Shown here piece by piece: positions 8,179 to 23,579 of a stretch of 64,000 bases of DNA; positions within the stretch are counted from its first letter, which is position 1; each line of letters begins with the position of its first letter. The translations under genes and the position numbers were made by a program. Source of the DNA: Citricoccus muralis (GTDB lineage: Bacteria > Actinomycetota > Actinomycetes > Actinomycetales > Micrococcaceae); contig NZ_CP121252.1 in assembly GCF_029637705.1 (NCBI RefSeq), positions 1,860,001 to 1,924,000 on the forward strand, read 5' to 3'. The notes beneath the pieces were generated by a model. That model did not search any database, was not told the origin of the DNA, and saw nothing but the letters and a program-made list of their open reading frames with translations.

Positions 8179-10815
8179 ATGGCACGCACGTCGAAGAACC
8201 GCTCACAGGCTTCCTCCGCGGCAGCACCGGAGATGGTGCCGCTGGACGAGCAGAACATTCTCGACGTCGACGTCTCCTCGGAGATGGAGACCTCTTTTCT
8301 GGAGTACGCCTACTCGGTGATCTACTCCCGCGCGCTGCCGGACGCCCGCGATGGGCTCAAGCCGGTACAGCGCCGCATTCTCTACATGATGGCGCAGATG
8401 GGCCTGCGCCCGGACAAGGGTCATGTGAAGTCCGCCCGCGTGGTGGGAGAGGTGATGGGTAAGTTGCACCCGCACGGCGACTCGGCGATTTACGACGCAA
8501 TGGTGCGTCTGGCTCAGCCGTTCTCGTTGCGGCTGCCGCTGGTGGACGGCCACGGCAACTTCGGCTCTCTCGACGACGGACCGGCCGCCCCACGGTATAC
8601 CGAGGCACGCATGGCTCCCGCCGCGATCGCGATGACGGCGGACCTGGATGAAGACGTCGTCGATTTCATCCCCAACTACGACAACAAGTTCACTCAGCCT
8701 GAAGTACTGCCCGCGGCTTTCCCTCAGTTGTTGGTGAACGGCGCCTCCGGTATCGCCGTCGGTATGGCCACCAATATGGCCCCGCACAATCTGCGCGAGA
8801 CCATCAACGCGGCCCGGCACCTGATTGCCCACCCGGATGCCACCCTGGACGACCTGATGGAACATGTTCCGGGCCCGGATCTGCCCTCGGGCGGGCGCAT
8901 CGTGGGGATGCAGGGCATCCGTGACGCCTACGCCACCGGACGAGGCTCCTTCAAGATGAGAGCCAACGTCTCCGTCGAGCAGGTCTCCCCGCGCAAGACC
9001 GGCCTGGTGGTCACTGCCTTGCCCTATGGGGTGGGCCCGGAGAAGGTGATCGAGAAGCTCAAGGACGCCGTGAATGCCAAGAAGGTCTCCGGCATTGCCG
9101 ACGTGCTGGACCTCACGGACCGCAAAAACGGCCTGAAGATGGTCATCGAGCTGAAGTCCGGCTTCAATCCGCAGGCCGTGCTGGCCCAGCTCTACAAGTT
9201 CACCCCGCTGGAGGAGTCCTTCGGCATTAATAACGTGGCCCTCGTGGAGGGGCAACCGCGCACCCTGGGGTTGCGCGAGTTGCTCGAGGTCTACGTCGAG
9301 CACCGGATCTCGGTGGTGCGCCGCCGCACGGCGTTTCGGCTGAAAAAGAAGCAGGATCGACTACACCTGGTTGAGGGCCTGTTGCTGGCTCTGGTGGACA
9401 TCGACGAGGTCATCGAGATCATCCGGTCCTCCGACGACACTGCCGCGGCACGCCAGCGATTAATGATGGTGTTCGACCTGACCGAGATTCAGGCGAATCA
9501 CATTCTTGAGCTGCGGCTGCGTCAGCTCACCCGGTTCTCTCGGATCGAGCTGGAAGCGGAGCAAGATGAACTCAAGCGCGCCATTGCCGAGCTGGAAGCC
9601 ATTCTTGCTTCGGATGAGCTGCTGCGCACCACGGTCTCCGATGAGCTCGCCGAGGTGGCTGAGCTGCACGGTGACGACCGGCGGACCCAGTTGCTCGAGG
9701 CGGAAAACCTGGCACCGCTGCCCACCCCGGCTGCAACGGCGAAAGCCAAAGCTGCCGGCCAGGACACCATGATGGTGGCCGATGACCCGTGCTGGGTGCT
9801 GCTGTCGACCTCCGGCCAACTGGTGCGCACTCGCGATCGGACTCCCCTGACCGGCCACGGGCGGCGTCAACGCCACGATGCCTACCGGTCCATCGTCGCC
9901 ACCACCGCACGCGGTGAAGTGGGCGCGCTGATGTCCTCGGGACGGATCCAGCGGATCAATGTGGTGGACGTGCCCAGCCTGGCCGAACCCACCGAATCCC
10001 CGAATCTGGCCTCCGGAGTGGCGGTCAAGGACTTCGTCACGCTGCAACGCGGCGAGACGCTGGTGGCCATCGTACCCCTGAATACCGTGCTCGCACTCGG
10101 CACCCGCGCCGGTGTGGTCAAGCGTGTCCGCCCGGACTGGCCCCTGAATGCGGATGAATTCGACGCCATCGCTCTTAAGGGCAAGGACGAGGTGGTGGGC
10201 GCGGCCGCGGCCGATGACGACTCCCAGCTGGTGTTCATCACCACGGGCGCTCAGTTGTTGCGATTCTCGGCCTCCGCGGTGCGGCCTCAGGGGCGCACCG
10301 GCGGCGGGGTGGCCGGGATCAAGCTCGGCGCCGACGACCAGGTGCTGTCCTTCTCGGTGGCTCCCGACCACACAGTCACCGACGATCTGGACACCACAGC
10401 ATTGGCTGTGGTGGTGACTGTCACGGCGGGCGAGGAAGACCTGATCAGTTCTGCGGGCTCCGCAAAGGTGACTCCGCTTGCCGAGTATCCTGCCAAGGGT
10501 CGCGCTACCGGTGGTGTCCGGGGGCACCGATTGCTGAAGGGCGAATCCGGGCTGCGCACCGCCTGGGCTGGTCCGAGTCCGGCATTGGCCGCCTCCGAGA
10601 AGGGCGTAGCCCGCACGCTCCCGCTGGAGTTCGGCCGTCGCGACGGCTCGGGCATCCCGCTGGACAACGGCATCGACGTCGTGGGGCTGGGCGCAAGCCC
10701 TACGTCCGCGGCTGCACGGGCGGCCGCGGATGCTGATGAGAGCATCGAACCGGCATCATCAGCACCGGTGCATGACGACGACGGTCCCGTCCAGGGCTCA
10801 CTGCTCGACGGCTGA
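8179..10815 (+). CDS. parC: DNA topoisomerase IV subunit A
   Basis: An 878-residue type IIA topoisomerase A subunit, which cuts and rejoins DNA during chromosome decatenation with ParE. The catalytic tyrosine is Tyr140 in APRYTEARM. The quinolone-contact segment [10 protein letters not shown] retains Ser102 and Asp106, the usual sensitive residues. A coiled-coil tower follows (about residues 360-500), then a beta-pinwheel C-terminal domain. No canonical QRRGGKG-type GyrA box is visible, which together with a ParE-like gene 13 kb away favours ParC over GyrA. The stop is only 17 bases from that of the convergent cydDC gene. The start is the ATG at 8179 after a short AAGAGGATC leader. Confidence 0.92.
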
Positions 10816-10832: not shown

Positions 10833-13800
10833 CTACACGGACGTGTGACTGTCTCTGCGGCCGAGCTCCAAGTGCTGGGTGCCACGTTCTGCGAAGCGCT
10901 CATCATGGGTCACCATGATGACGGTGTGCCCCTGCAACGCGCGGCGCAGATCATCCACCAATTGGGCGGCTTCGTCGGCACCCAGGTGCGCTGTAGGTTC
11001 GTCCAACAAGACCGTGTGCGAGCGATTTAGCAGCGCTCGCGCCACCGCTAGGCGCTGGCGCTGACCTCCCGAGAGGAAATGGCCTCCCGGCCCCACCCGA
11101 GTGTCCAGTCCCTCGGGAGTCGCCGCCAACCACGGACCCAGCCCCACCAGCTCCAGAGTCTGAACCATTTCGGCATCGGTGGCGCGGTCTTCCGGATCGC
11201 GGGCCAGCAGCAGGTTTGAGCGCAGCGTGGAATCAAACAGGTGTGCGTCCTGGGGACACCAGGCCACCCCCGCCCCATGCTGGTTATCGTTGCTGGTGCT
11301 ACCGAGACGAAGGTGACCGGCGTGGGGTGGCAGAAAGCCCATCAGCACCGCCAATAGGGTCGATTTTCCGGATCCCGAGGGACCAGTCACCACCACGAAG
11401 TCACCTAAGCGTGCCGACAGACCGAGGTCTACGAGCACGGGGCCCTGGCCGTAATCTGCGCTGAGATGACGCATTTCCACCACACCGTCAGGGGCAGTTT
11501 CGATGCCGGTGATCGTCGGGTCGTCGCCGTTCCTGGTGATCAGCGGTTCCAATACCGCCAGCTGACGCCGCACCACTGACACCGACTGCGCGGCTGCGGC
11601 TACTTGTCCGAAGGGCTCGGCCAGCGCCAACACCATAAACACCGCCAATGCCGCGGACGGAGCATCCACCGCCTGGCTGACACAGATCCAGAGCACCGCC
11701 AGCGCGGTCAGCCCGGCCACGGTGGCGCTGAGCGATTGACCGAGACCCGCCACCCAGGCGCTGCGTTGCAACCGGGCGGCTCCGGCTCGATCTTCCGCAC
11801 CGAAGCGGAAAACAAGTTCCTGAGCGGTACCGGTCCCCTGAATGTCCGCTGCTGCGGCAAACAACACAGAGGTGCGTTGCATCAACCAGCTGCGGTGTGC
11901 CGCACTGGCCGCTGTGGCGCGTCGGTCCAGTCGCGCGGCAGCCCACGGAACCAGCACCAGCCCGAACAGCCCAGCCAGCGCCACAGCCCACCACGCCGGC
12001 GGCGCCATATACGCCACCACCACGATGCTCAGCCCCCAGGCCAGCACCGCTGCCGGGATGGGAACCACCACGCGTGGCACCGCGTCTCGGAGCTCATCGA
12101 TCTCCGACACCAGCACTGAGAGGGAGCCGCCAGCATGACGCAGCCGATTCCAGCCCTCGACCCGATACCCCAGTCCATCCCAGACCGCCAGCCGCACCCG
12201 GTGCGCCCACCGCAGCACGGCCTGATGCACGCTGAGTCGTTCGAGATAGCGGAACAGAGCGCGGCCAATGCCGAAAAAGCGCACGCCCACAATCACAGAG
12301 AGCAGGAACAACACCGGCGGCTCATAAGAAGCCTGCACGATCAGCCACCCCGATAGCGCAGACAGCAACGCACCGGCCAACAGCGCCGCCACCGCCCAGG
12401 CAATCCCGGAGCGGAATCCTTTCTCGCCCCAGGGCAGCGCCCGGAACATCTTGCGTAGCTGCAGCGGCTCCACTCGCTGGTTGTTCGGCGCGGCTGGTCC
12501 TGACAGTGCCATCGCATGTTCCGTGTTTGGCTGTGCATCGCCGTCCGGCACGGTCACGGACGAGGCAGGGACGGGCTCGGCGACATCGAAAACGTCAACG
12601 GTATCGACAACCTCAAACTCGCCACCCAGGTCACCCTGCACCAGCACGTCCGCCTCGGCGTGTAGGCGGGGATCGTGCGAGGCGACCAGCACGATGGCAT
12701 TCTGATCTCGCAGCCTGCGCAGGGCAGCACGGACGCGGGCGGCCGAGTCCGGATCCAAGTGGGCCGTCGGTTCATCGAGAAGCACCAGCCACGCCGATGG
12801 CGCACTCTCGTCACTGCGCACCCGCACCAGGACACGGGCCATACCTAAACGCCGTGCCTCCCCCGGACTGAGATCCATACACGCCTGGTCGCCCAGGCTT
12901 TCCAATCCCAAGGTCGCCAGGACCTCCTCGATGAGTACCTCATCGGCGGAGACATCGGTGTCATGATGTGTCTGACCGCGTTCGGCAGCCAGCACCAGGC
13001 GCACTTCCTCGGCTACGGTGGCTTCGGTGAAATGTGGATGCTGATCCAGCCACGCGATGCGTCGATCCGCCAGCCCAGAGATTGTCCCCGAGACGACGAT
13101 CTCGTCGTCACGCAACGCCCCGGCCAGGGCCCGTAACAACGTGGACTTGCCCGTCCCCGAGGCGCCCCCCAACACGGTCAGTGACCCGGCAGGTGCAGTG
13201 AGCGATACCCCGCGCACGACTGCTTGACGTCCGGGTTCGTCAGATGCCTGTCGACTGCGGTAATTCAGCTGTAGCTCGTCCACGACGAGGGCATCGGCAG
13301 TACCCGATGCTGTCGTTTCAGACTCCGCGTCCAGGGCATCTGCGAGGCGTTCTGAACGTGGTGTAGATAGTCGCTGGCGGGCGCGCCGCAGCGCCTCTAC
13401 CCCGTCCTCGGCCGCGTGATAGGCCGAACCCACCTCACGGAACGGTAGATAGATCTCGGGGGCAATGATCAAAATGAGCAGCCCCACCACCAGCTCCAGG
13501 TCTCCGTCGACCATCCGCACACCGATGAACACCGCCACCACAGCCACCGACAGGGTGGAGATCAGTTCAAGGGCGAACCCCGACATAAAGGCGGCACGCA
13601 GGGTCTTCATGGTGGTCGCCCGATATTCTTCGGCCACCGTCGTCAGCGAGGCGCGCTGCACCCCTGCCCGGCGAAGCCCCACCAACACGGGCAGCCCCCT
13701 CGCTAGCTCCAGTAGGTGATGTGAGAGTCGATCCAGCCCCTCTGCAGCCTCGTCCACGCGCTCCTCAGTGTGCCGTCCAATGAGAATCATGAATAGTGGG

Positions 13801-14381
13801 ATCAGCGGCAGAGTCAAAAGGACGACGATCGCCGAGATTAGATCGTGCAGAAGCACCCAGAAGCCCAGAACCGCTGGCACCACGACGGCCGAAACGAGAG
13901 CCGGCAGAAAATCCGTATAGTACTGGTCCAGCTCGTCGAGCCCATGCGAGGCCAGCATGGCGTCTTCTGCAGCAGAGTCCGACGTTGAGCCCCCTTCGTC
14001 GAGGTGCCGACGCACCAGCTGAAGGCGCAACCGCTCCTTCTCCCCCAGTGCGGCGCGACGCGACATGACCTGTTGGCCCCATAGGGCAACCCCGCGTACG
14101 AGCACCCCACCCAGCCCGAGCTGCAGACTGAGCAAGAAGCCGCCCGACTCAGCCAGCGCGCCCAATTCCGAGCGTTGTTCTTCGGTGGCCGGCAGCGGGT
14201 TGAAGAGCAAATGCAGTAACCGCGATGCGTCGGGAGCCGTCAGCGCATCGGCCAGCTGGCTCAGCACGGTGGCCGCAGCGGTGGCCAGCATGATCCAGCC
14301 CGCCGCTTTCACGACTGCGAGCGCGGTCAGCCAAATCAAAGCCCACCGGCCTGCCTTGGATTCCGGTAGTTCCGGCCTCAC
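10833..14381 (-). CDS. cydDC: CydDC fused ABC exporter for cytochrome bd assembly
   Basis: A single 1182-residue protein joining CydD (about 1-560) and CydC (about 620-1182), the exporter of thiols needed to assemble cytochrome bd. Each half has a six-helix membrane domain and an ATPase. Walker A is GGASGTGKST (Lys412) in the CydD half and GPSGSGKST (Lys1006) in the CydC half. The CydC signature LSGGQRQRL is canonical, while the CydD signature is degenerate (LSPGEARRL). The start is GTG at 14381, which overlaps the cydB stop as GTGA and has GGTGA five bases upstream. A longer frame continues inside cydB but is a shadow. Fused CydDC is known in several actinobacteria. Confidence 0.92.
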   Translation of the reverse strand: MRPELPESKAGRWALIWLTALAVVKAAGWIMLATAAATVLSQLADALTAPDASRLLHLLFNPLPATEEQRSELGALAESGGFLLSLQLGLGGVLVRGVALWGQQVMSRRAALGEKERLRLQLVRRHLDEGGSTSDSAAEDAMLASHGLDELDQYYTDFLPALVSAVVVPAVLGFWVLLHDLISAIVVLLTLPLIPLFMILIGRHTEERVDEAAEGLDRLSHHLLELARGLPVLVGLRRAGVQRASLTTVAEEYRATTMKTLRAAFMSGFALELISTLSVAVVAVFIGVRMVDGDLELVVGLLILIIAPEIYLPFREVGSAYHAAEDGVEALRRARQRLSTPRSERLADALDAESETTASGTADALVVDELQLNYRSRQASDEPGRQAVVRGVSLTAPAGSLTVLGGASGTGKSTLLRALAGALRDDEIVVSGTISGLADRRIAWLDQHPHFTEATVAEEVRLVLAAERGQTHHDTDVSADEVLIEEVLATLGLESLGDQACMDLSPGEARRLGMARVLVRVRSDESAPSAWLVLLDEPTAHLDPDSAARVRAALRRLRDQNAIVLVASHDPRLHAEADVLVQGDLGGEFEVVDTVDVFDVAEPVPASSVTVPDGDAQPNTEHAMALSGPAAPNNQRVEPLQLRKMFRALPWGEKGFRSGIAWAVAALLAGALLSALSGWLIVQASYEPPVLFLLSVIVGVRFFGIGRALFRYLERLSVHQAVLRWAHRVRLAVWDGLGYRVEGWNRLRHAGGSLSVLVSEIDELRDAVPRVVVPIPAAVLAWGLSIVVVAYMAPPAWWAVALAGLFGLVLVPWAAARLDRRATAASAAHRSWLMQRTSVLFAAAADIQGTGTAQELVFRFGAEDRAGAARLQRSAWVAGLGQSLSATVAGLTALAVLWICVSQAVDAPSAALAVFMVLALAEPFGQVAAAAQSVSVVRRQLAVLEPLITRNGDDPTITGIETAPDGVVEMRHLSADYGQGPVLVDLGLSARLGDFVVVTGPSGSGKSTLLAVLMGFLPPHAGHLRLGSTSNDNQHGAGVAWCPQDAHLFDSTLRSNLLLARDPEDRATDAEMVQTLELVGLGPWLAATPEGLDTRVGPGGHFLSGGQRQRLAVARALLNRSHTVLLDEPTAHLGADEAAQLVDDLRRALQGHTVIMVTHDERFAERGTQHLELGRRDSHTSV

Positions 14382-15397
14382 ACCGGGGTCACCACATGGT
14401 GTTCGGGAATGTGCTGTTCGCTCAGGCGCTGACGGAAGATCCAGTAACTGTACGCCGTGTAGGCGAGCACCAGCGGAATGAACACCGCTGCCACCCAGGC
14501 CATCACCGTCAGCGTGTAGCCACTGGATGAGGCGGTCTCGATGGTGAGGTGGAACGCGTCGTCCAGTGTCGAGGGCAACACCACCGGGTAAAGGCTTCCG
14601 AAGATCGCGGTTACCCCGGCCGTGACCGTGACAGCCATGGCCACGAACGACCAGCCTTCGCGTTGACGTAGCGCCCAGGCCCAGGCGAGCAGCGCCGCCA
14701 GGACGGCCACCACCAGCGCGCACCAGGTCCAGACCCGGCCGGCATTGAGCACCACAAGGAGCGACCAGGCCAGGAGGGGCAGCAAGTACAGGATCCCGAA
14801 GCGGCTCAGATGCCAGCCGGCGGCTTCGCGTGGGGCGCCCAGCGTCTTGAGGCCAAGCCAAGCCCAGCCCATGGCCAAGGAAATACCCAGCACAGCGAGC
14901 CCACCCAGTACCGCATAGGGGGTCAGCCAGGCGAAGGCCCCGCCCACTCGATCGCCGTTGGCGTTGAGGGGAAGCCCCGTGGTGGTGAGCCCCAGCAACG
15001 CACCAATAAAGAAGGCCGACACCGCGGAGCCGCCAAAGAGACACCAATCCCAGATGGTGCGGGTGAACACGGTCTCAGATTTACTGCGGTAATGAATGGC
15101 CACCGCTCGCACGATCAACGCCAACAGGGTCAGCGTCAACGGAATGTAGAGGGCGGAGAAGATCGCCGCGTACCAGAGCGGAAAGGCTGCAAACATGGCA
15201 CCGGCCGCGGTGATCAGCCATACTTCGTTTCCTTCCCATACCGGTCCAATGGTGTTGAGAAGCACGCGGCGTTGGGATTCGTTGCGGGCCCACACCTTCA
15301 TGAGCATGCCCACGCCGAGGTCGAAGCCCTCTAGCACCAGGTACCCGGTCCAGAGCACCGCGATAAGGATGAACCAGACTGTCGGAAGAAATTCCAT
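14378..15397 (-). CDS. cydB: Cytochrome bd quinol oxidase subunit II
   Basis: A 339-residue polytopic membrane protein with about eight or nine hydrophobic helices, starting MEFLPTVWFILIAVLWTGYLVLEGFDLGVGML, the conserved N-terminus of CydB. It partners CydA in the cytoplasmic membrane to oxidise quinol and reduce oxygen to water with high affinity. ATG at 15397 is preferred over ATG at 15403 because AAGGG then lies nine bases upstream and the protein begins where relatives do. It follows cydA by 42 bases and overlaps cydDC by four bases, so cydA-cydB-cydDC is one transcription unit. Confidence 0.95.
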   Translation of the reverse strand: MEFLPTVWFILIAVLWTGYLVLEGFDLGVGMLMKVWARNESQRRVLLNTIGPVWEGNEVWLITAAGAMFAAFPLWYAAIFSALYIPLTLTLLALIVRAVAIHYRSKSETVFTRTIWDWCLFGGSAVSAFFIGALLGLTTTGLPLNANGDRVGGAFAWLTPYAVLGGLAVLGISLAMGWAWLGLKTLGAPREAAGWHLSRFGILYLLPLLAWSLLVVLNAGRVWTWCALVVAVLAALLAWAWALRQREGWSFVAMAVTVTAGVTAIFGSLYPVVLPSTLDDAFHLTIETASSSGYTLTVMAWVAAVFIPLVLAYTAYSYWIFRQRLSEQHIPEHHVVTPV

Positions 15398-15439
15398 CGT
15401 CATCAGCCCTTCAGAGATTCGGTGGTGATATCGGGGTGG

Positions 15440-17020
15440 TCAGTAGGCAAACGCGAGAACGTCTTTGTCATGGCGCTCCTCGTCGTCATTGTCTTCATCA
15501 GCTAATAGTTCGGGCATCCCAGCGGGCACTCCGCCGCGAATGTAGCGAGCCAGCAGCCAGAGCTCGACCACCAGCAGCACCGCGTAGATCAGGGTCAATG
15601 CGATCAGCGAGAAGAGGATTTCTCCCCCGGAGACGCCCGGAGATACAGCCGCGGCGGTATACATCCAGACTTGGTCGATCCCCGTAGGGTCGGGATTGGG
15701 CGCGACGACGAACGGCTGGCGCCCCATTTCGGTAAAGATCCAGCCCGCGGAGTTAGCGAAGAACGAGAAGGTGATCTGTACCAGGGCCAGGCGCATCAGC
15801 CACTTATTGGTGGGCACGGTGCCCTTGCGACCCAGCCACAATCCGATGGCAGCAGCCAGGGCAGCCATGCCACCGAAGGTGATCATCAGTCGGAAGCCCC
15901 AGTACGTCACTTCCATCACCGGCAGGTAGTCGATCTCGCTCCCAGCTCGGTCCCCGTACATGGGGTCGTCGGGAAGATGCGTGCCGTACTTCTCCTGATA
16001 CTCGGGGATGAGCGTGTTGACGCCGTCCACCGGGGTGGTGAAGTCCTCATAGGCAAGGAACGAGAGCAGTCCCGGAATCTCGAAAACGCCCACGATGTCG
16101 TCACAGGTAGTCGCCCCATCGGTGTTGCGCAAATCGGCGAAAGAAAACACGGAGAACGCCGTGCCGTCGTGACAGGCTGCTTCGGCCGCAGCCATCTTCA
16201 GCGGCTGCTGTTCGATCATCAGCTGTGCCTGAGCGTGACCGGAAAACGCCGTACCGAGGAACGCCACCAAGGCAATCCAGCCTCCCCAACGGAACGAAGT
16301 GCGCCACACGCGGTAGTCGGTTTCGTCGCTGGCCTTGGATCCCGTGGTGCCGACCATGACCTTTCCGTCGGTGTCCACGGAGTCGATGCCCTGCACACGA
16401 CGTCGGTAGAGGTGGTACCAGGCCACACCGAAGAGGAACCCACCGGCCACGGCCAGGGCACCGAACACGGTGTGTGGGAAGTGCACGAGCAGCGTGTTGT
16501 TGGTCAGCACCGCCCAAATGTCGGTGAGCACGGGCCGTCCGTCCACCATCTCCACGCCCACGGGATGTTGCATCCACGCGTTGGCGGCCAGAATGAAGTA
16601 CGCCGAGAACATGGAGCCAATAGCGGCAGCCCACAGCGAAGCTAAGTGGATCCAGGGGCGCACCCGTCCCCAGCCGAAGATCCAGATGCCGAGGAACACC
16701 GACTCCATGAAGAAGGCGATCAGCGCCTCCATGGCCAGCGGTGCGCCAAAGACGTCACCGACGAAACGGGAATATTCACTCCAGGCCATTCCGAACTGGA
16801 ATTCCTGGACCAGGCCGGTGGCCACCCCCATGATGAAGTTGATCAGGAACAGCTTCCCGAAAAACTTGGTCATGCGCAGGTACTGCTCGTGTCCGGTGAT
16901 GTGCCACATGGTCTGCATGCTGGCCAGCACCACCCCGAGACCGATCGTCAGCGGAACCATCAGAAAGTGGTAAACGGTGGTGATTCCGAACTGCCACCGG
17001 GCAAGCTCCAGAGGATCCAT
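15440..17020 (-). CDS. cydA: Cytochrome bd quinol oxidase subunit I
   Basis: A 526-residue CydA beginning MDPLELARWQFGITTVYHFL, with the axial-ligand-bearing N-terminal histidines and conserved segments such as FGMAWSEYSRFVGDVFGAPLA. It carries the haem groups and the quinol site of the oxidase. The periplasmic quinol loop appears to be of the short type. ATG at 17020 has AAAGGA six bases upstream; the longer frame to 17098 is not conserved-looking. It is the first gene of the leftward cyd operon, whose promoter must lie in the 235-base gap shared with the divergent BlaI-family gene. Confidence 0.95.
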   Translation of the reverse strand: MDPLELARWQFGITTVYHFLMVPLTIGLGVVLASMQTMWHITGHEQYLRMTKFFGKLFLINFIMGVATGLVQEFQFGMAWSEYSRFVGDVFGAPLAMEALIAFFMESVFLGIWIFGWGRVRPWIHLASLWAAAIGSMFSAYFILAANAWMQHPVGVEMVDGRPVLTDIWAVLTNNTLLVHFPHTVFGALAVAGGFLFGVAWYHLYRRRVQGIDSVDTDGKVMVGTTGSKASDETDYRVWRTSFRWGGWIALVAFLGTAFSGHAQAQLMIEQQPLKMAAAEAACHDGTAFSVFSFADLRNTDGATTCDDIVGVFEIPGLLSFLAYEDFTTPVDGVNTLIPEYQEKYGTHLPDDPMYGDRAGSEIDYLPVMEVTYWGFRLMITFGGMAALAAAIGLWLGRKGTVPTNKWLMRLALVQITFSFFANSAGWIFTEMGRQPFVVAPNPDPTGIDQVWMYTAAAVSPGVSGGEILFSLIALTLIYAVLLVVELWLLARYIRGGVPAGMPELLADEDNDDEERHDKDVLAFAY

Positions 17021-17180
17021 CGGGTTCCTTTCCCTTCTTGCCACAAGACGCGTGTGAGACGTTTCGTGTTGATGTGGCCTCTGTGACGCAGAGCCCAACG
17101 ACGCACAGGCGGATAGAAGCTAGAGTTATGGGAAGATCAGCTACGATCCAGCGGCCGTTTCGCCACCAGTGTACGCCTTT

Positions 17181-17197
17181 TTCTACACGTTGTAGAA
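17181..17197. promoter_or_regulatory. Candidate BlaI-family operator and overlapping -10
   Basis: TTCTACA-CGT-TGTAGAA is a perfect inverted repeat with seven-base arms and a three-base spacer, built on the TACA/TGTA half-sites known for BlaI/MecI-type repressors. A -10-like TAGAAT (17193-17198) overlaps its right arm, 58 bases before the start of the BlaI-family gene, as expected for autorepression. No convincing -35 is visible. It lies about 160 bases upstream of the divergent cydA start. Confidence 0.65.
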
Positions 17198-17255
17198 TTC
17201 ATGCTGAGGGCACCCGTCGTCGATCGTCAAACACCACGAACACACCAGGAGCACC

Positions 17256-17624
17256 ATGTCCCTCGGACAGCTTGAACAGCAAGTCATGGACCTGCTCTGG
17301 GATCGCACCGAGCCACTGACCGCCAATGAATTGCGCGATCAGCTCATCGAGCGCTCCCCGCACGCCCCGGAGCCGGCCGTCACCACGGTGCTCACGGTCC
17401 TGACCCGACTGACGAAGAAGGGATTCGTGCTGCGCGAATCCGGGAAGCGTCCCCACCGCTTCAGGGCCGCCAGCTCGCGCGAAGAACACACCGTCGAACT
17501 CCTCAACGAAGTACTCGGTGCCGTCCCCGACCGTGAGGCCGTGTTGGCTCGATTCGTCGGAACCATCGGCCCCGAAGAGGCTGCCGCACTGCGCCGCGCC
17601 CTGAATTCGAGCGCGCCCGCCTAA
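17256..17624 (+). CDS. BlaI/MecI/CopY family transcriptional repressor
   Basis: A 122-residue winged-helix repressor (LGQLEQQVMDLLWDRTEPLTANELRDQL, then TTVLTVLTRLTKKGFVLRE), followed by a C-terminal dimerisation helix pair. Family members bind TACA/TGTA palindromes and are inactivated by proteolysis when a partner M56 protease senses a signal. ATG has GGAG five bases upstream. The M56 gene starts 13 bases after it, the classic repressor-protease pair also seen in mycobacteria (Rv1846c/Rv1845c). Beta-lactam regulation cannot be assumed, as no beta-lactamase lies nearby. The neighbours are cyd and ole genes. Confidence 0.92.
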   Translation: MSLGQLEQQVMDLLWDRTEPLTANELRDQLIERSPHAPEPAVTTVLTVLTRLTKKGFVLRESGKRPHRFRAASSREEHTVELLNEVLGAVPDREAVLARFVGTIGPEEAAALRRALNSSAPA

Positions 17625-17637
17625 TCCGTGCACCCTG

Positions 17638-18603
17638 ATGACGCCCTATTTGCTCCTGGTCGCGGCCATCGCTCTGGCCTGGCCCGTACCGGTGGCCCTG
17701 TCACGGGCGTCCTGGGTGCGACGCGCTCCAGCCACCGCGATGATCCTCTGGCAGGCCGTGGGCCTGGCCGGTGGCATCACCATGATCGGCGCCCCGCTGA
17801 TATGGGGGCTCGCACCCTTCGGCACCGGACTGATCAGCGCCGTGAGCGAACTCATCCATCTCGGCAGCCATGGTGGGCTGAGCGCCATTGTCGACGTCGA
17901 GGAATTCACCTCCGACCGCATTGTCGGGGTCACGCTAGGACTCGCCCTGGGAGTCCACCTCATCCTCACCCTGTTGGATGCGACCCGAAAAACGGTGCAG
18001 GAACGGAGCCGTCACCGCCGGGCCGTCCAGCTTCTCACGGCGGCTGCCCCCTTTCGCACCACTACCGATCCCACCACCGGTCAGATGCGGGTATTGCCCT
18101 TGGACCACCCGTTGGCGTACTGCCTCCCCGGAATCACCAATTCACTCACCGTCATCTCCCGGGGCTTGATCGAGCAGTTGGAACCTGCTCAACTCGATGC
18201 GGTGGTCGCCCATGAACAGGCTCACCTGCGCCAGCGCCACGATCTGCTGCGCCTGGCTTTCGAAGCCTGGAGCCGGGCCTGCGCGTGGCTGCCCACCACA
18301 GCGATCGCCCGGCAGGCGGTCACCGAACTCACCGAAATGCTGGCCGACGACGCCGCACTACGCAAACACCGCCAACACGATCTCGTGAGCGCCATCGCCG
18401 TGGTGGCGGGCGCTGGTGCGGGTACCCCCTCAGCGACGCCCACCTCCGACCACACCGAGAACGACGACCCGAAGCACTCCTCTAGCCGCCTGGAACGCTT
18501 GCTGCATCCACACCCGGCCCCCCCGCTGCTCTTCACGGGGACGGTCCTCGTCGTCTCCGCGATGCTCATGATCGGCCCAATCCTACTGATCCTCATCGGC
18601 TGA
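17638..18603 (+). CDS. M56 family membrane metallopeptidase (BlaR1-like, no sensor domain)
   Basis: A 321-residue membrane protein with hydrophobic segments at about 1-20, 35-60, 95-115 and 300-321. A cytoplasmic-type zinc protease loop carries HEQAH (His192, Glu193, His196) and a downstream EMLADD (Glu233) that fits the third ligand. It lacks the extracellular penicillin-binding sensor of BlaR1/MecR1, as in the mycobacterial homologue, so the trigger is unknown. Its likely substrate is the adjacent BlaI-family repressor, with which it is co-transcribed. A Pro/Thr/Ser-rich linker precedes the final helix. Confidence 0.87.
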   Translation: MTPYLLLVAAIALAWPVPVALSRASWVRRAPATAMILWQAVGLAGGITMIGAPLIWGLAPFGTGLISAVSELIHLGSHGGLSAIVDVEEFTSDRIVGVTLGLALGVHLILTLLDATRKTVQERSRHRRAVQLLTAAAPFRTTTDPTTGQMRVLPLDHPLAYCLPGITNSLTVISRGLIEQLEPAQLDAVVAHEQAHLRQRHDLLRLAFEAWSRACAWLPTTAIARQAVTELTEMLADDAALRKHRQHDLVSAIAVVAGAGAGTPSATPTSDHTENDDPKHSSSRLERLLHPHPAPPLLFTGTVLVVSAMLMIGPILLILIG

Positions 18604-18666
18604 AGTTTCGCGTAGAGCGTGCCCGTTACTGGTTCCTACCCAACGTTCAGGAGCGTGCCGATACAA

Positions 18667-18694
18667 TTGAGACTTGTGCCGGGTCCGCTATGGT
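18667..18694 (+). promoter_or_regulatory. Candidate promoter for the ole operon
   Basis: TTGAGA (18667-18672) and TATGGT (18689-18694) are separated by 16 bases, placing a start near 18701 and a leader of about 60 bases before oleA. An alternative -10-like TACAAT lies at 18662-18667. The 158-base gap after the M56 gene supports a separate promoter, though readthrough from the repressor operon is possible. Confidence 0.45.
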
Positions 18695-18761
18695 GACCTC
18701 AATACGCTCCACAGAGGCCGGGCACGACGCCATAGCACCCTACTGATTGAGTCGACGCCAC

Positions 18762-19784
18762 GTGTCAGGAAACGCCACCACGATCCATCATCATGCTGCC
18801 CTGCTTTCCGTTGTGGAGGTGAGCGCGCCGATCGAAGTGACGTCCGAGGACCTCGATCAACGCATCGACTCAGTGCTCAAGCGCCTGCATTTGCCCCACG
18901 GCCTGCTCCAACGCGTCGCCGGCGTCAAAGCCCGGCGGATGTGGAAACAACGCGGTGACTATCTCGACGGCGCCGCCCAGGCAGGAACCAAAGCCCTGAA
19001 AGAAGCGGGAATCACCCCCGACCAGGTCGGCATGCTGATCAATACCTCGGTCACCCGGGACACCCTGGAACCGGCAGTGTCGGTGCGGATCCATGACCAG
19101 ATGGGGCTGCCGAGTTCGGCGATGAACTTCGACATCACCAACGCCTGCCTCGGCTTTGTCAACGGCATGGACCTGGCCTCCACTATGGTTGACGCCGGAC
19201 ACATCGACTACGCACTGGTGGTCGCCGGCGAAGACGCCAACGCCGTGCACGACGCCACCATCAAAAACCTGCACGCCAACTCCGTCACCCGTGATAATTT
19301 CCTCCAGCAGTTCGCCTCTCTGACCTTGGGATCCGGGGCCGCTGCCGCGGTCATCGGCCGGGCTGAAGCTCACCCCGAGGGCCACCGCATTCTGCGCGGC
19401 GTCACCCGGGCCGGCACCGAGCACCATCACCTGTGCGCCGGTGATCACAACGGTATGTACACCGACTCCGCGGGGCTCCTCACCAACGGGCTCCAGTTGG
19501 TGATGGACGCCTGGAACGACGCGCCAGAGGAGTGGGATTGGGCGTCGATGGACCGCTACATCACCCACCAGGTGTCGCAGATGCACACCGATGCGATCAT
19601 CGACTCCGCCGGCATCGCCCGTGAGAAAATTCCCACCACGTTCCCGGTGCTCGGCAATATCGGCCCGGCGGCACTGCCCATCACGCTCGCCCGCGAAACT
19701 GATTCCCTGTCCTCCGGCGACCGCGTCCTCTGTATGGGTGTGGGCTCCGGATTGAACGTGGCCATGCTCGAAATCGAATGGTGA
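18762..19784 (+). CDS. oleA: Long-chain acyl-CoA head-to-head condensing enzyme OleA
   Basis: A 340-residue thiolase-superfamily enzyme that joins two fatty acyl-CoA molecules head-to-head into a 2-alkyl-3-ketoalkanoic acid, the first step of long-chain olefin synthesis. The nucleophilic cysteine is Cys129 in TNACLGFVNGM. The catalytic histidine (ITHQVSQMHT) and the GNIGPAALP asparagine loop follow in the expected order. The GTG at 18762 gives VSGNATTIHHHAALLSV, resembling the start of Micrococcus OleA; a TTG at 18747 is an alternative. The ribosome-binding site is poor. It lies seven bases before oleBC and is clearly part of the ole operon. Confidence 0.92.
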   Translation: MSGNATTIHHHAALLSVVEVSAPIEVTSEDLDQRIDSVLKRLHLPHGLLQRVAGVKARRMWKQRGDYLDGAAQAGTKALKEAGITPDQVGMLINTSVTRDTLEPAVSVRIHDQMGLPSSAMNFDITNACLGFVNGMDLASTMVDAGHIDYALVVAGEDANAVHDATIKNLHANSVTRDNFLQQFASLTLGSGAAAAVIGRAEAHPEGHRILRGVTRAGTEHHHLCAGDHNGMYTDSAGLLTNGLQLVMDAWNDAPEEWDWASMDRYITHQVSQMHTDAIIDSAGIAREKIPTTFPVLGNIGPAALPITLARETDSLSSGDRVLCMGVGSGLNVAMLEIEW

Positions 19785-19791
19785 TCAACTG

Positions 19792-22590
19792 ATGCGTATT
19801 CCCGCCCAGCCCGCCGGTCTCCCCCACGAATTCGCCCCGGACACCGAGCTACCCGGGTGGGATCCTGCCTGGTCGCGCCTTGTCGAGGCCGACACCCACG
19901 ACGGCGTCCACACCTTCCACGTCCTCGACACCGGCCCCGAGCTGGAGCGACTAGGGGTTAAGCCCGATGCCGTCATCCTCGCCGTACACGGCAACCCCAC
20001 CTGGTCCTACCTGTGGCGACATGTGGCCGCAACTAGCCTCGCCACGGCCAGGGAATGGGTCGAGGCGGCTTCCACAGACAGTCCGCGCCGACGTCAGCGT
20101 CGACCCCGAATCTGGCGCCTCGTGGCCCCCGACCAGCTTGATATGGGCTTCTCCGAGAGGCTCGAGCACACCAGCTCTCCCACCCCGGGGCGTCCACGCA
20201 GCTATCGCACCTTGGCTGAGCGTCTCAGCGATCTCGACGCCGTCGTCCGCGCCCTCGGTCTCGACGTCGACGCCCAGCGGTCCACCGCACCCGTCCCGTT
20301 GTTCACCCTCGGTCACGACTGGGGCGGCGTCATCTCCCTGGGCTGGGCTGCCGACCATCAACACCTGGTGAGTGGTTCGATCTCTCTCAACACCGCGGTG
20401 CACCACGACGCTGACGAGCCGATTCCTGCCCCCTTGCAGGCAGCCCTCGCCGGGCCGGTGCTCGCCGGATCCACCGTTGTCACCACCGCGTTCCTCGATG
20501 TCACGCTCGGCCTGGGTCACCCGGGCCTCGCCTCCGAGACCAAGCACGCTTATCGTGCGCCCTATCAGGGGCTGGAACGACGCGGAGGCATTGGCGGCTT
20601 CGTCGCCGACATCCCCGCAGATGCCAAGCATCACTCGTACCAGCCGCTGCGCCATATCGCCCGTAACCTGAGCTCCTCGTCCTTGCCGACCCTTTTACTC
20701 TGGGGCGCTCTGGACCCGGTGTTCCTAGACCGCTATCAGCAGGACCTGCTGGAACGGATCCCTCAGGTTGACCTGCACCGGTACGAAACCTCTGGGCATC
20801 TGCTCGCCGAAGACCAAGACCTCGGCACCCCGATCTTTTCCTGGGCAAACGCAGTGGTTGACGAACAAAGTCGCCCGCTGGATTCCGCCGTGGCCGCGGC
20901 CTCGCCCCGACCAGCCTATCGCGCTCTGTGGTCGTTCCTGGAAGAGAAATCAGACAGCTCAGAGACCGCCCTCGTGGATATGACGGCCACCCGGAATTCG
21001 CGCCCCGACGGCGTCTCGTGGGCCACGCTGTCCCGGGTGGTCAACGCGATCGCCGTGGGTCTACGCCGCAGCGGGGTGAAGCCCGGGGACCGGGTCTCTC
21101 TGCTGGTCCAGCCCGGACGTGACCTCACCGCCGCCCTCTACGCCGTGCTCCGCGTGGGTGCCACCGCTGTGATCGCCGACGCGGGCCTGGGTATCCAGGG
21201 CATGACGCGCGCTGTGCATACCGCCCGCCCCCAGTGGATCATCGGCGAGCTACCGGGCCTTACCCTCGCCCGCGCCCAGCGGTGGCCGGGCCGTCGCCTC
21301 TCCGTATCCACTCTCGGCGCACCCCTGCGTGCCGCGCTGCAGGTGGAGAACAGCCTCTACCGGCTCGCGGACACCTACAACGGCCACGTCTATCACGCGA
21401 CAAAGGATCATCCGGATCCCGAGCCAGCACAGACCGCAGCAATCCTCTTCACCTCCGGCTCGACCGGGCCGGCCAAAGGCGTGCGATACACCCACGATCG
21501 GCTCTCGGCTCTCACCCAGTTGCTACGTGATAATTTCGGCGTGGTCCCCGGGTCGTCCCTACTCGCCGGGTTCGCACCTTTCGCGTTGCTGGGACCGGCG
21601 ATCGGCGCCACCTCCGTCACCCCGAAAATGTCGGTCACCAAGCCCGCCACCCTCACCGCCACCGCGGTGGCCGAGGCTGCAGCCGCCGGATCCGCGACCA
21701 TGGTCTTCGCGTCCCCCGCGGCCCTGCGCAACGTCGTTGCCACCGCGCCGCAGCTGAGCGAAGATCAGCGTCGGCAATTGGGCACCATTTCACTCATGCT
21801 CTCCGCTGGCGCCCCGGTGGCGCCGGATCTTATGGACCAGGTACTCGAGCTGATGCCCCAGGCGGAATTCCATTCCCCTTACGGGATGACGGAATCCCTG
21901 CTCCTGGCCGACATCGACCGAGACACCCTGCGCGCCGCACACCGCGAGGCCCCCACCGAACAACACGGGGTGTGCGTGGGCCACCCCGTTCCGGGCGTGG
22001 AGATCGCGATCGCGCCTCTCAACGCTGACGGCACTGCCTCATCCCAGTTACGCCGGGGTACTGAGTCCCAGGGAATCCTGGGCGAGATCGTGGTGTCGGC
22101 CCCGCACATGACCGCTGGCTACGATCGGCTCTGGTATACCGACCATCTTTCCAAGCGCGACTTCGACGGCGAACGCCAGTGGCACCGCACCGCCGATATC
22201 GGTCGCATCGACGGATCATCCCGGTTGTGGATCGAAGGCCGCCTGCAGCATGTGGTCACCACCGCCCACGGCCCCCTGGCCCCGGGCGGCCCCGAAGCCC
22301 AGATCGACACCCTCCAGGCGGTCTCCCGCAGCGCCGTCGTCGGCGTCGGCCCGCACGGCACCCAGGCAGTGGTCGCCGTGATCGAACCGACCGACCGCTC
22401 CGTTAAACCCGGGCTAGCCCCCACCTGGCTGAGCGACCAGGTGCGCGAGACAGTCGACACCCCGATCGCCGCCGTGCTCGTCACCAACCAGGTGCCGGTG
22501 GACATCCGCCACAATTCCAAAATCGACCGCACCCGACTGTCGCGTTGGGCTGAGACCGTGCTCAGTGGAGGAAAGGTGAGCACCCCATGA
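19792..22590 (+). CDS. oleBC: OleBC fusion: beta-lactone decarboxylase and beta-lactone synthetase
   Basis: A 932-residue fusion. Residues 1-370 are the alpha/beta-hydrolase OleB, with HGNPTWSY, nucleophile Asp176 in GHDWGG and His336 in SGHLLAED. Residues 385-932 are the adenylate-forming OleC, with FTSGSTGPAKG (about 553-563), GMTE and a C-terminal lid. OleC activates the beta-hydroxy acid and closes it to a beta-lactone; OleB decarboxylates the lactone to an internal olefin. Fused OleBC is characteristic of Gram-positive ole clusters, while Gram-negative clusters have separate genes. The stop overlaps the oleD start (ATGA). Confidence 0.93.
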   Translation: MRIPAQPAGLPHEFAPDTELPGWDPAWSRLVEADTHDGVHTFHVLDTGPELERLGVKPDAVILAVHGNPTWSYLWRHVAATSLATAREWVEAASTDSPRRRQRRPRIWRLVAPDQLDMGFSERLEHTSSPTPGRPRSYRTLAERLSDLDAVVRALGLDVDAQRSTAPVPLFTLGHDWGGVISLGWAADHQHLVSGSISLNTAVHHDADEPIPAPLQAALAGPVLAGSTVVTTAFLDVTLGLGHPGLASETKHAYRAPYQGLERRGGIGGFVADIPADAKHHSYQPLRHIARNLSSSSLPTLLLWGALDPVFLDRYQQDLLERIPQVDLHRYETSGHLLAEDQDLGTPIFSWANAVVDEQSRPLDSAVAAASPRPAYRALWSFLEEKSDSSETALVDMTATRNSRPDGVSWATLSRVVNAIAVGLRRSGVKPGDRVSLLVQPGRDLTAALYAVLRVGATAVIADAGLGIQGMTRAVHTARPQWIIGELPGLTLARAQRWPGRRLSVSTLGAPLRAALQVENSLYRLADTYNGHVYHATKDHPDPEPAQTAAILFTSGSTGPAKGVRYTHDRLSALTQLLRDNFGVVPGSSLLAGFAPFALLGPAIGATSVTPKMSVTKPATLTATAVAEAAAAGSATMVFASPAALRNVVATAPQLSEDQRRQLGTISLMLSAGAPVAPDLMDQVLELMPQAEFHSPYGMTESLLLADIDRDTLRAAHREAPTEQHGVCVGHPVPGVEIAIAPLNADGTASSQLRRGTESQGILGEIVVSAPHMTAGYDRLWYTDHLSKRDFDGERQWHRTADIGRIDGSSRLWIEGRLQHVVTTAHGPLAPGGPEAQIDTLQAVSRSAVVGVGPHGTQAVVAVIEPTDRSVKPGLAPTWLSDQVRETVDTPIAAVLVTNQVPVDIRHNSKIDRTRLSRWAETVLSGGKVSTP

Positions 22591-23579
22591 GCTCCTCTCC
22601 GAACCACGTTCTGGTCACCGGCGCCTCGGGTGTGCTCGGTTCCGGCGTCGCCGGTGCGCTACTCGCTCAAGGCGCGGGTGTCACCACCCTGCAACGTCGC
22701 CCCGCCCAGCTCGACGGCGCCCGTGAGGTCCGCGGCTCCGTCACCGATCACGACACCGTCCGCCAAGCGCTGACCGGCGTCGACACCGTGGTGCACCTGG
22801 CCGCCAAGGTCTCCGTCTCCGGTCCTGGCCACGAATTTGAGCACGTCAATGTGGAAGGCACCCGGCTCCTGCTCAACGCCGCCCGTGACGCGGGGGTGTC
22901 CCGGTTCGTCCACATTTCCTCGCCCTCCGTGGCACACTCTGGTACCTCCATCATCGGCGACGGCGCTCAACCGGCCGATCCGGTGCATGCCCGCGGCCAC
23001 TACGCCCGCACCAAAGCCGCCGGTGAGTTGCTAGCGCTGGATGCAGACGCCGAAGATTTCCGTGTTCTCGTGTTGCGTCCGCACCTGATGTGGGGGCCGG
23101 GCGATACCCAACTCACCGAGCGGATCATTGATCGTTCCCGCAGTGGCCGCATGCCGATCATCGGCTCCGGTGCCGCGTTGGTGGATACCCTGTATGTGGC
23201 GAACGCCGTCGATGCTGTCCTCGCCGCCACCCGTGCGGTGGACCGCCATCACGGCGAGGCACTCGTCGTGACTAATGGTGAACCGCGCCCCATCGGCGAG
23301 CTCATTCGAGGGCTGGCCCGTGCCGGCGGCTCCCCCGAGCCCGTTCTGCGCGTGCCCGCGGGACTGGCCCGCGTCGCAGGATCCGTGATTGAGCGCATCT
23401 GGGAAGCGATACCCGCCGAATCCGGCGACGGCGAGCCCCCGCTCACCCGGTTCCTGGCCGAACAACTCTCGACGGCGCACTGGTTTGATCAGCGCCGCAC
23501 CCGCGAGGTCCTGGACTGGACGCCGCGTGTGTCGATCGATGAGGGGATGCGGCTTACCGCCGAGCATTACGCCGGGTAG
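22587..23579 (+). CDS. oleD: NADPH-dependent 2-alkyl-3-ketoacid reductase OleD
   Basis: A 330-residue extended short-chain dehydrogenase. The nucleotide-binding TGASGVLGSG is at residues 11-20 and the catalytic YxxxK is HYARTKAAGE. It reduces the OleA product to the beta-hydroxy acid used by OleC. ATG overlaps the oleBC stop by four bases, implying translational coupling, with GGAAAGG upstream. Its own stop is 18 bases from that of the convergent parE gene, with no hairpin between. OleA, OleBC and OleD together are a complete olefin pathway. Confidence 0.92.
   Translation: MSSSPNHVLVTGASGVLGSGVAGALLAQGAGVTTLQRRPAQLDGAREVRGSVTDHDTVRQALTGVDTVVHLAAKVSVSGPGHEFEHVNVEGTRLLLNAARDAGVSRFVHISSPSVAHSGTSIIGDGAQPADPVHARGHYARTKAAGELLALDADAEDFRVLVLRPHLMWGPGDTQLTERIIDRSRSGRMPIIGSGAALVDTLYVANAVDAVLAATRAVDRHHGEALVVTNGEPRPIGELIRGLARAGGSPEPVLRVPAGLARVAGSVIERIWEAIPAESGDGEPPLTRFLAEQLSTAHWFDQRRTREVLDWTPRVSIDEGMRLTAEHYAG

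Follow-up and report, generated by a model that had tools for sequence, protein, structure and literature searches.

The stretch analyzed here (the window) is 64,000 nucleotides of Citricoccus muralis DNA (assembly GCF_029637705.1, contig NZ_CP121252.1, positions 1,860,001 to 1,924,000), in which the interval between the topoisomerase IV genes parC and parE is filled by genes for cytochrome bd (cyd), a BlaI-type repressor with a BlaR1/M56-like membrane protease, and olefin biosynthesis (ole). Comparison across relatives makes it likely that the BlaI-M56 pair acts as a switch for respiration, based at the divergent cydA-blaI promoter region, and that the ole operon is a neighbor.

Layout of the parC-parE interval

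Gene calls were based on open reading frames together with Pfam and NCBIfam profile matches. These confirmed an earlier note on this DNA in placing the block between the parC end at 10815 (plus strand) and the parE end at 23598 (minus strand), with gaps of only 17 and 18 bases to parC and parE. The coordinates in that note held overall, with small shifts in the starts of cydA, cydDC, and oleA. The features are as follows.

8179-10815, plus strand: parC, topoisomerase IV subunit A, left flank (PF00521, E = 1.3e-150)
10833-14381, minus strand: cydDC, fused thiol-reductant ATP-binding cassette (ABC) exporter for cytochrome bd assembly (NCBIfam models: CydD at 616 bits, CydC at 515 bits, each above cut-off); probable start GTG at 14381, picked among candidate starts
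14378-15403, minus strand: cydB, cytochrome bd oxidase subunit II (PF02322, E = 8.8e-93)
15440-17020, minus strand: cydA, cytochrome bd oxidase subunit I (PF01654, E = 1.5e-147); start ATG at 17020
17181-17197, no strand: predicted BlaI operator, TTCTAC-N5-GTAGAA, a perfect palindrome
17256-17624, plus strand: blaI, Penicillinase_R-family repressor (PF03965, E = 2e-19)
17638-18603, plus strand: BlaR1/M56-like membrane zinc protease without penicillin-binding sensor domain (PF01435 [M48] above cut-off, PF05569 below cut-off; HExxH motif)
18667-18694, plus strand: promoter-like match TTGAGA-16-TATGGT, 5' of oleA (from a consensus scan only; 1 found versus a shuffle mean of 0.2)
18762-19784, plus strand: oleA, head-to-head acyl condensing thiolase (PF08541/PF08545; NF006720, 446 bits versus a cut-off of 285); probable start GTG at 18762
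19792-22590, plus strand: oleBC, fused alpha/beta hydrolase and AMP-binding beta-lactone synthetase (PF00561, PF00501; 286 bits to the olefin beta-lactone synthetase equivalog model [OleC], below its cut-off of 900)
22587-23579, plus strand: oleD, 2-alkyl-3-oxoalkanoate reductase (PF01370/PF01073; 270 bits to the OleD equivalog model, below its cut-off of 580)
23598-25706, minus strand: parE, topoisomerase IV subunit B, right flank (PF00204, E = 5.5e-48)

The block therefore reads parC> <cydDC<cydB<cydA [operator] blaI> M56> oleA>oleBC>oleD> <parE. By profile matches it holds a complete cytochrome bd set (CydA, CydB, CydD, and CydC) and the ole pathway genes OleA, OleBC, and OleD, in that order, and cydA and blaI diverge from a gap of 235 base pairs (bp) at 17021-17255. 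Transcription outward from this one central region, as previously proposed, fits cyd and blaI-M56; a single rightward transcript that includes ole is not established, because a 158-bp gap containing a separate promoter-like match lies in front of oleA. The cyd/BlaI-M56 layout is more than chance, since it recurs across the family.

Conservation of the cyd and BlaI-M56 genes and their predicted shared operator

In a sample of 120 genomes of the family, this BlaI was found in 103, cydA in 109, and both in 97, and in 92 of those 97 the two genes are divergent neighbors within 3 kilobases (kb). Several kinds of match were dropped before these counts, namely, BlaI matches below 92 bits (paralogues and the divergent copies of g11), cydA matches below cut-off, weak oleA matches below 82 bits (G038, G062, and G119), and second pieces of split genes. 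An M56-like gene lies directly downstream of blaI in the window and at all 80 loci from named records, which were collected via a BlaI alignment, and the commonest layout among 40 chosen loci that were mapped is parC> <cyd BlaI>M56> <parE. Within the parC-parE interval, BlaI-M56 occurs without cyd in three genomes (G003, G024, and G051), cyd and ole occur without BlaI-M56 in G104, and ole occurs with neither cyd nor BlaI in G013. BlaI and cydA are apart in five genomes; in the two of these that were examined (G003 and G064), cydA has two perfect operators before it. The retention of operators by an unlinked cydA separates the predicted regulation from gene order.

The only perfect 7-3-7 palindrome in the cydA-blaI gap is TTCTACA-CGT-TGTAGAA, at 17181-17197; cydA starts 160 bp away on one side of it and blaI 58 bp away on the other. 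When 37 BlaI upstream regions of the family were compared (one of them from a divergent g11 copy), the constant part of the operator was the 17-bp TTCTAC-N5-GTAGAA, and the classical TACA-N2-TGTA operator was not the conserved form. The conserved site was present within 400 bp upstream of blaI at 80 of 80 named loci (75 perfect and 5 with one mismatch), with two or three perfect copies in many of these records. A looser guess, CTACA-N3-TGTAG, was dropped; many BlaI loci lack it, and in many genomes the reversed control pattern is at least as common. For other regulators, consensus patterns gave no Rex-like match in 17021-17255 at up to 4 mismatches, and Crp-like matches there solely at 2 to 3 mismatches. 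With the neighbor relationship in 92 of 97 genomes, the operator at every named blaI locus, and the operators at unlinked cydA, the earlier tie between BlaI-M56 and the terminal oxidase is borne out. Judged from these sequence comparisons, cyd and BlaI-M56 are a conserved, predicted regulatory unit, and TTCTAC-N5-GTAGAA appears to be a newly recognized DNA site through which the BlaI-protease pair would control respiration genes.

Inherited gene order alone, with a BlaI-cyd association devoid of regulatory meaning, would account for parC and/or parE flanking the block in most mapped loci, and the ole placement (see below) is likewise vertically inherited. We consider this explanation highly improbable, given that the operators persist at unlinked cydA, that operator counts track BlaI, and that in six genomes of another family, f18 (L406 to L411), cyd, BlaI, and M56 stand together at the site with no parE in the examined stretch.

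Two database records deserve comment. One locus (L305), in a record titled Sporosarcina beigongshangi, is a typical Micrococcaceae cyd-BlaI-M56-parE locus, and the assembly is probably mislabelled or contaminated. The label "cydDC" in Nesterenkonia records probably reflects a weak ABC-transporter match and not cyd (32 to 34% identity and 60 to 63 bits in the g12 maps).

The window BlaI matches PF03965 with 70.5 bits against a gathering score of 22.6. Its nearest solved structure is 2g9w (98 bits), which we take to be the Mycobacterium tuberculosis BlaI (Rv1846c); MecI gave 26 bits. An RF[IVL] motif near residue 99, presumably the equivalent of the staphylococcal BlaI cleavage site, is found in 77 of the 80 BlaI proteins. 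The protease carries HExxH at residues 192 to 196, a motif present in 78 of 78 proteins examined (2 of the 80 loci gave no usable frame) and invariant in alignments. Its structural model (predicted local distance difference test score, 88.9) has BlaR1 as the best fold match, with a Z score of 10.5 over 226 residues and a root mean square deviation of 6.6; the alignment covers solely BlaR1 residues 1 to 293, and M48-type proteases follow close behind. Foldseek alone also placed BlaR1 first (E = 3.8e-3), with a low template modeling score of 0.33. The penicillin-binding C-terminal sensor domain is absent from the protease, which has 321 amino acids versus 602 for BlaR1.

The family matches, together with CopC and oxidase-assembly genes among the predicted targets, would also fit a classical repressor that responds to penicillin or copper, of the BlaR1/BlaI or CopY type, whose link to cyd is secondary. 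That is very unlikely in our judgment, as the protease has no penicillin-binding domain, the operator spacing is unlike TACA-N2-TGTA, and the CxC copper motif is present in 0 of the 80 named-locus BlaI proteins, the window BlaI being without any cysteine. Metal sensing via CxC was rejected on the same count. No beta-lactamase gene lies in the block, a genome-wide search for one not having been made. The genome of the window also encodes a second BlaI-family repressor (G000:C1:2825154-2825474), which scores 86 bits to PF03965 versus 70 for the window BlaI.

Predicted targets within and beyond the family

The 103 BlaI genomes together contain 560 perfect operator sites, versus 44 for the reversed pattern; in 13 BlaI-less genomes there is 1, versus 2 for the reversed pattern, and four genomes with divergent BlaI have one each. 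From the matches listed, 68 loci were taken for closer study; they come from 19 genomes in seven genera and together carry 70 perfect sites that lie outside the cyd-blaI gap. At 61 of these 68, a named or recurrent target starts within about 420 bp of a perfect site. (Of nine additional loci chosen for looser sites, three are counted in the 68, two correspond to the cyd-blaI gap, and four lack a perfect site.) The most frequent target is hemQ, behind a perfect site in at least 11 genomes of six genera, followed by a TlpA/ResA-like gene (at least 6 genomes), a flavohemoglobin gene (at least 5), and a divergent helix-turn-helix/ABC-transporter gene pair (at least 5). Perfect sites also precede ctaC (at least 2), SURF1 (at least 2), sdhC (at least 2), and ctaB (at least 1), as well as several uncharacterized small membrane proteins. 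Pfam agrees for at least one example protein from each named target family; the names resA and ctaB are our own, given to a thioredoxin-like match and a UbiA match, respectively. The predicted regulon spans respiration as a whole, a point absent from the earlier note. Separately, a membrane protein gene with a perfect operator was seen in five g3 genomes (L334, L336, L339, L342, and L348), and the L334 copy has no Pfam match.

A perfect-site scan of 159 genomes of the order gave matches in 29, of which 10 belong to the window's family and 19 lie elsewhere, confined to three (f6, f14, and f18) of the 18 other families sampled. Besides the six f18 genomes described above, two f6 genomes have cyd-BlaI-M56 at the site, there with parE, and in two f14 genomes BlaI-M56 lies within about 2.5 kb of sites, with no cyd there. 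Among ten further f6 site loci examined, five have the site before a resA, CopC, universal stress protein, or small-membrane-protein relative. A named Microbacterium record likewise has the cyd-BlaI-M56 trio without parE in the examined stretch.

The window's own genome, of 3.13 megabases, has two perfect sites, one in the cydA/blaI gap and one before a small membrane protein of 126 amino acids (L169:1561-1941; G000:C1:2782041-2782421) that has no NCBIfam match. A relative of this protein also carries a perfect site in two g12 genomes (G011 and G064), where it is beside isocitrate lyase, and a 76% relative with a perfect operator occurs in another family (L399). Five sites with one mismatch lie before atpB (at about 200 bp), ctaE, hemQ, and a weak methylenetetrahydrofolate reductase-like gene and inside sodA, the last named by eye from its translation. 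Among the near-operator listings, two 17-base strings recur at least 4 times, on either strand, and are probably within repeated mobile elements (e.g., G000:C1 positions 1445138, 2309713, and 2739950 and positions 1168479, 1189748, 1202405, and 1754425).

Several of these results weigh against a respiratory switch of this reach. Concerning the protease, the match to PF05569 (M56) is 23.7 bits, under the gathering score of 31, and a Z score near 10 is modest for a helical protein. The window's own genome has only the two perfect sites, and one of its seven sites falls inside sodA; with up to 2 mismatches allowed, this genome has fewer matches to the pattern (74) than to its reversed control (134), so the one-mismatch sites are individually weak and need comparative support. 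The atpB site, at up to one mismatch, was found in 10 of 63 BlaI genomes tested (one of the 63, G010, having a divergent copy only) and 0 of 13 BlaI-less genomes, all 10 being in the window's clade, and control of ATP synthase was rejected as a family-wide rule. At the same threshold the ctaE site occurs at 6 of 30 loci (the best-matching 30 of 118 genomes), or 6 of the 24 from BlaI genomes, and control of ctaE was rejected as a general rule. The genome contrast is partly phylogenetic, because the BlaI-less genomes fall in only three genera (g2, g5, and g14) and the BlaI-holding members of g5 and g14 have only 0 to 1 sites; one genome (G086) has BlaI and zero perfect sites. No target could be assigned at 7 of the 68 family loci or at 5 of the 10 non-cyd f6 loci. 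Finally, the target list was derived from the same sites on which it is counted, so the evidence is the recurrence across genera and not the fraction assigned.

Placement and control of the olefin genes

oleA is present in 91 of the 120 family genomes, and in the 78 that have both BlaI and oleA, the two are within 3 kb in 15, within 15 kb in 5, and farther apart or on other contigs in 58. It is retained in all 13 genomes that lack both this BlaI and the divergent g11 copy, and it is missing from 25 of the 103 BlaI genomes. The ole genes are positioned before parC in G011 and G064, as are oleBC and oleD in 11 named Nesterenkonia records, in which oleA is beyond the examined stretch. Occurrence of the three parts at separate, unrelated loci in relatives would speak against the module of the earlier note; this was seen for ole, which mostly lies elsewhere (58 of 78 genomes), and cyd stays with BlaI-M56. 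In a 39-row tree built from parE and parC by a quick method, all 12 rows with ole in the interval form one clade (Shimodaira-Hasegawa-like approximate likelihood ratio test, 99) and require one change, so the entry of ole into the interval is best read as a single event in the ancestor of that clade.

A search allowing up to 2 mismatches found no operator ahead of oleA at 20 adjacent and 20 non-adjacent loci, nor any in the window from the end of blaI to parE. The adjacent set includes four duplicates and one locus (L055) with a broken oleA and no reliable oleA start, and the non-adjacent set includes G085, where ole and BlaI are no more than 12 kb apart, and G001, which has no BlaI. By eye, a TAGGCT/TAAGCT-like box recurs in the M56-oleA gap of linked relatives, and the ole genes probably use their own promoter. 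No terminator-like site was found in the 158-bp gap between M56 and oleA, so read-through may occur. At L055 (G015; about 11985-14783, BlaI-forward), the ole genes look decayed, with an oleA match from residue 88 that has an internal stop and a partial oleBC.

These data bear on a three-part co-regulated module, in which BlaI-M56 would run cyd to the left and ole to the right, an envelope signal linking respiration with membrane olefins. Such a module would suit the unbroken same-strand run of blaI, M56, oleA, oleBC, and oleD with no terminator-like site in the gap, the retention of this order in five genera of one clade, and the confinement of the atpB operator to the clade in which the ole-linked genera also fall. 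We nevertheless find it unlikely, in view of the operator search before oleA, negative at the 20 adjacent and 20 non-adjacent loci and in the window, the promoter-like match there, the persistence of ole in G013 and G104, where there is no BlaI/M56 (nor, in G013, any cyd), and the single evolutionary placement, by which the conserved order counts as one event. Co-regulation of olefins by BlaI is unsupported beyond the possible read-through. Coordination of the oxidase with hydrocarbon production by an envelope signal, which the earlier note thought possible, is likewise unsupported, ole lying apart from BlaI in most relatives and no operator having been found before oleA at the loci searched. 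The ole genes look like a lineage-specific neighbor and not a proven member of the BlaI switch.

Proposed mechanism and comparison with known systems

On our best reading, BlaI would repress genes for respiration and heme proteins, and the BlaR1-like protease without a penicillin sensor would relieve this repression. A BlaI dimer would bind TTCTAC-N5-GTAGAA and repress cyd, itself, and the other targets; the membrane protease, once activated, would cleave or displace BlaI, and its release would increase the supply of terminal oxidase and heme proteins. The activating signal may be a failing respiratory chain or heme supply, such as low oxygen, nitric oxide, or an oxidase or heme defect, a weaker suggestion prompted by the recurrent targets, which are cytochrome bd, HemQ, cytochrome c assembly, and flavohemoglobin. 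The ole operon would have moved beside this locus once, in the clade ancestor, probably with its own promoter, and run-on from blaI-M56 could still raise its expression. More speculatively, the sensor-less protease and BlaI could be a master switch of the biogenesis of aerobic respiration in several actinobacterial families, in which membrane sensing of respiratory failure or heme shortage frees cytochrome bd, heme synthesis, cytochrome c/aa3 assembly, nitric oxide detoxification, and ATP synthase, with the olefins of one clade under read-through; we regard this wider proposal as tentative and somewhat doubtful.

BlaI/BlaR-type pairs are mostly regarded as regulators of antibiotic resistance. 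No publication connecting BlaI with cyd or with cytochrome oxidase genes appeared among the matches listed, with subscription journals and preprints outside the search. If the respiratory reading is true, a widespread branch of BlaI governs the assembly and protection of the actinobacterial respiratory chain, and the signal of its protease is probably respiratory and not a beta-lactam. It would also give a physiological setting to the reported BlaI control of the mycobacterial ATP synthase, and the defined operator would make the regulon open to direct testing.

Earlier work places the system among known ones. The oleA, fused oleBC, and oleD genes resemble the oleABCD operon of Micrococcus luteus and other Micrococcales (PMC7158056), whereas here they are beside cyd/BlaI-M56; a term search of the main text of PMC7158056 gave neither "cyd" nor "topoisomerase." Control of cydAB is reported to be under Crp in Mycobacterium smegmatis and under Rex in Streptomyces (PMC7739888). 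The operator TTCTAC-N5-GTAGAA (TACA-N3-TGTA where extended) differs from the TACANNTGTA reported for CopY, BlaI, and MecI (PMC7253601). With the CopY/CopR copper repressors, the window BlaI shares the winged-helix family, at 24 bits to TIGR02698, far below the cut-off of 122; unlike them, it has no CxC metal site and has a protease partner. As in staphylococcal BlaR1-BlaI and MecR1-MecI, the repressor and membrane zinc protease genes adjoin, and the protease fold is nearest that of BlaR1, whereas here there is no penicillin-binding sensor and the predicted targets are respiratory. The M. tuberculosis BlaI system includes a sensor-less BlaR. The M. tuberculosis BlaI, the closest solved relative, is reported to act on the ATP synthase operon, which it binds and represses (PMC12565901, PMC5874750, PMC8265638), a target reported there (PMC12565901) and predicted here in one clade. 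Unlike in M. tuberculosis, the home locus here is the cydA divergent region, and the predicted targets are oxidases and heme and cytochrome assembly.

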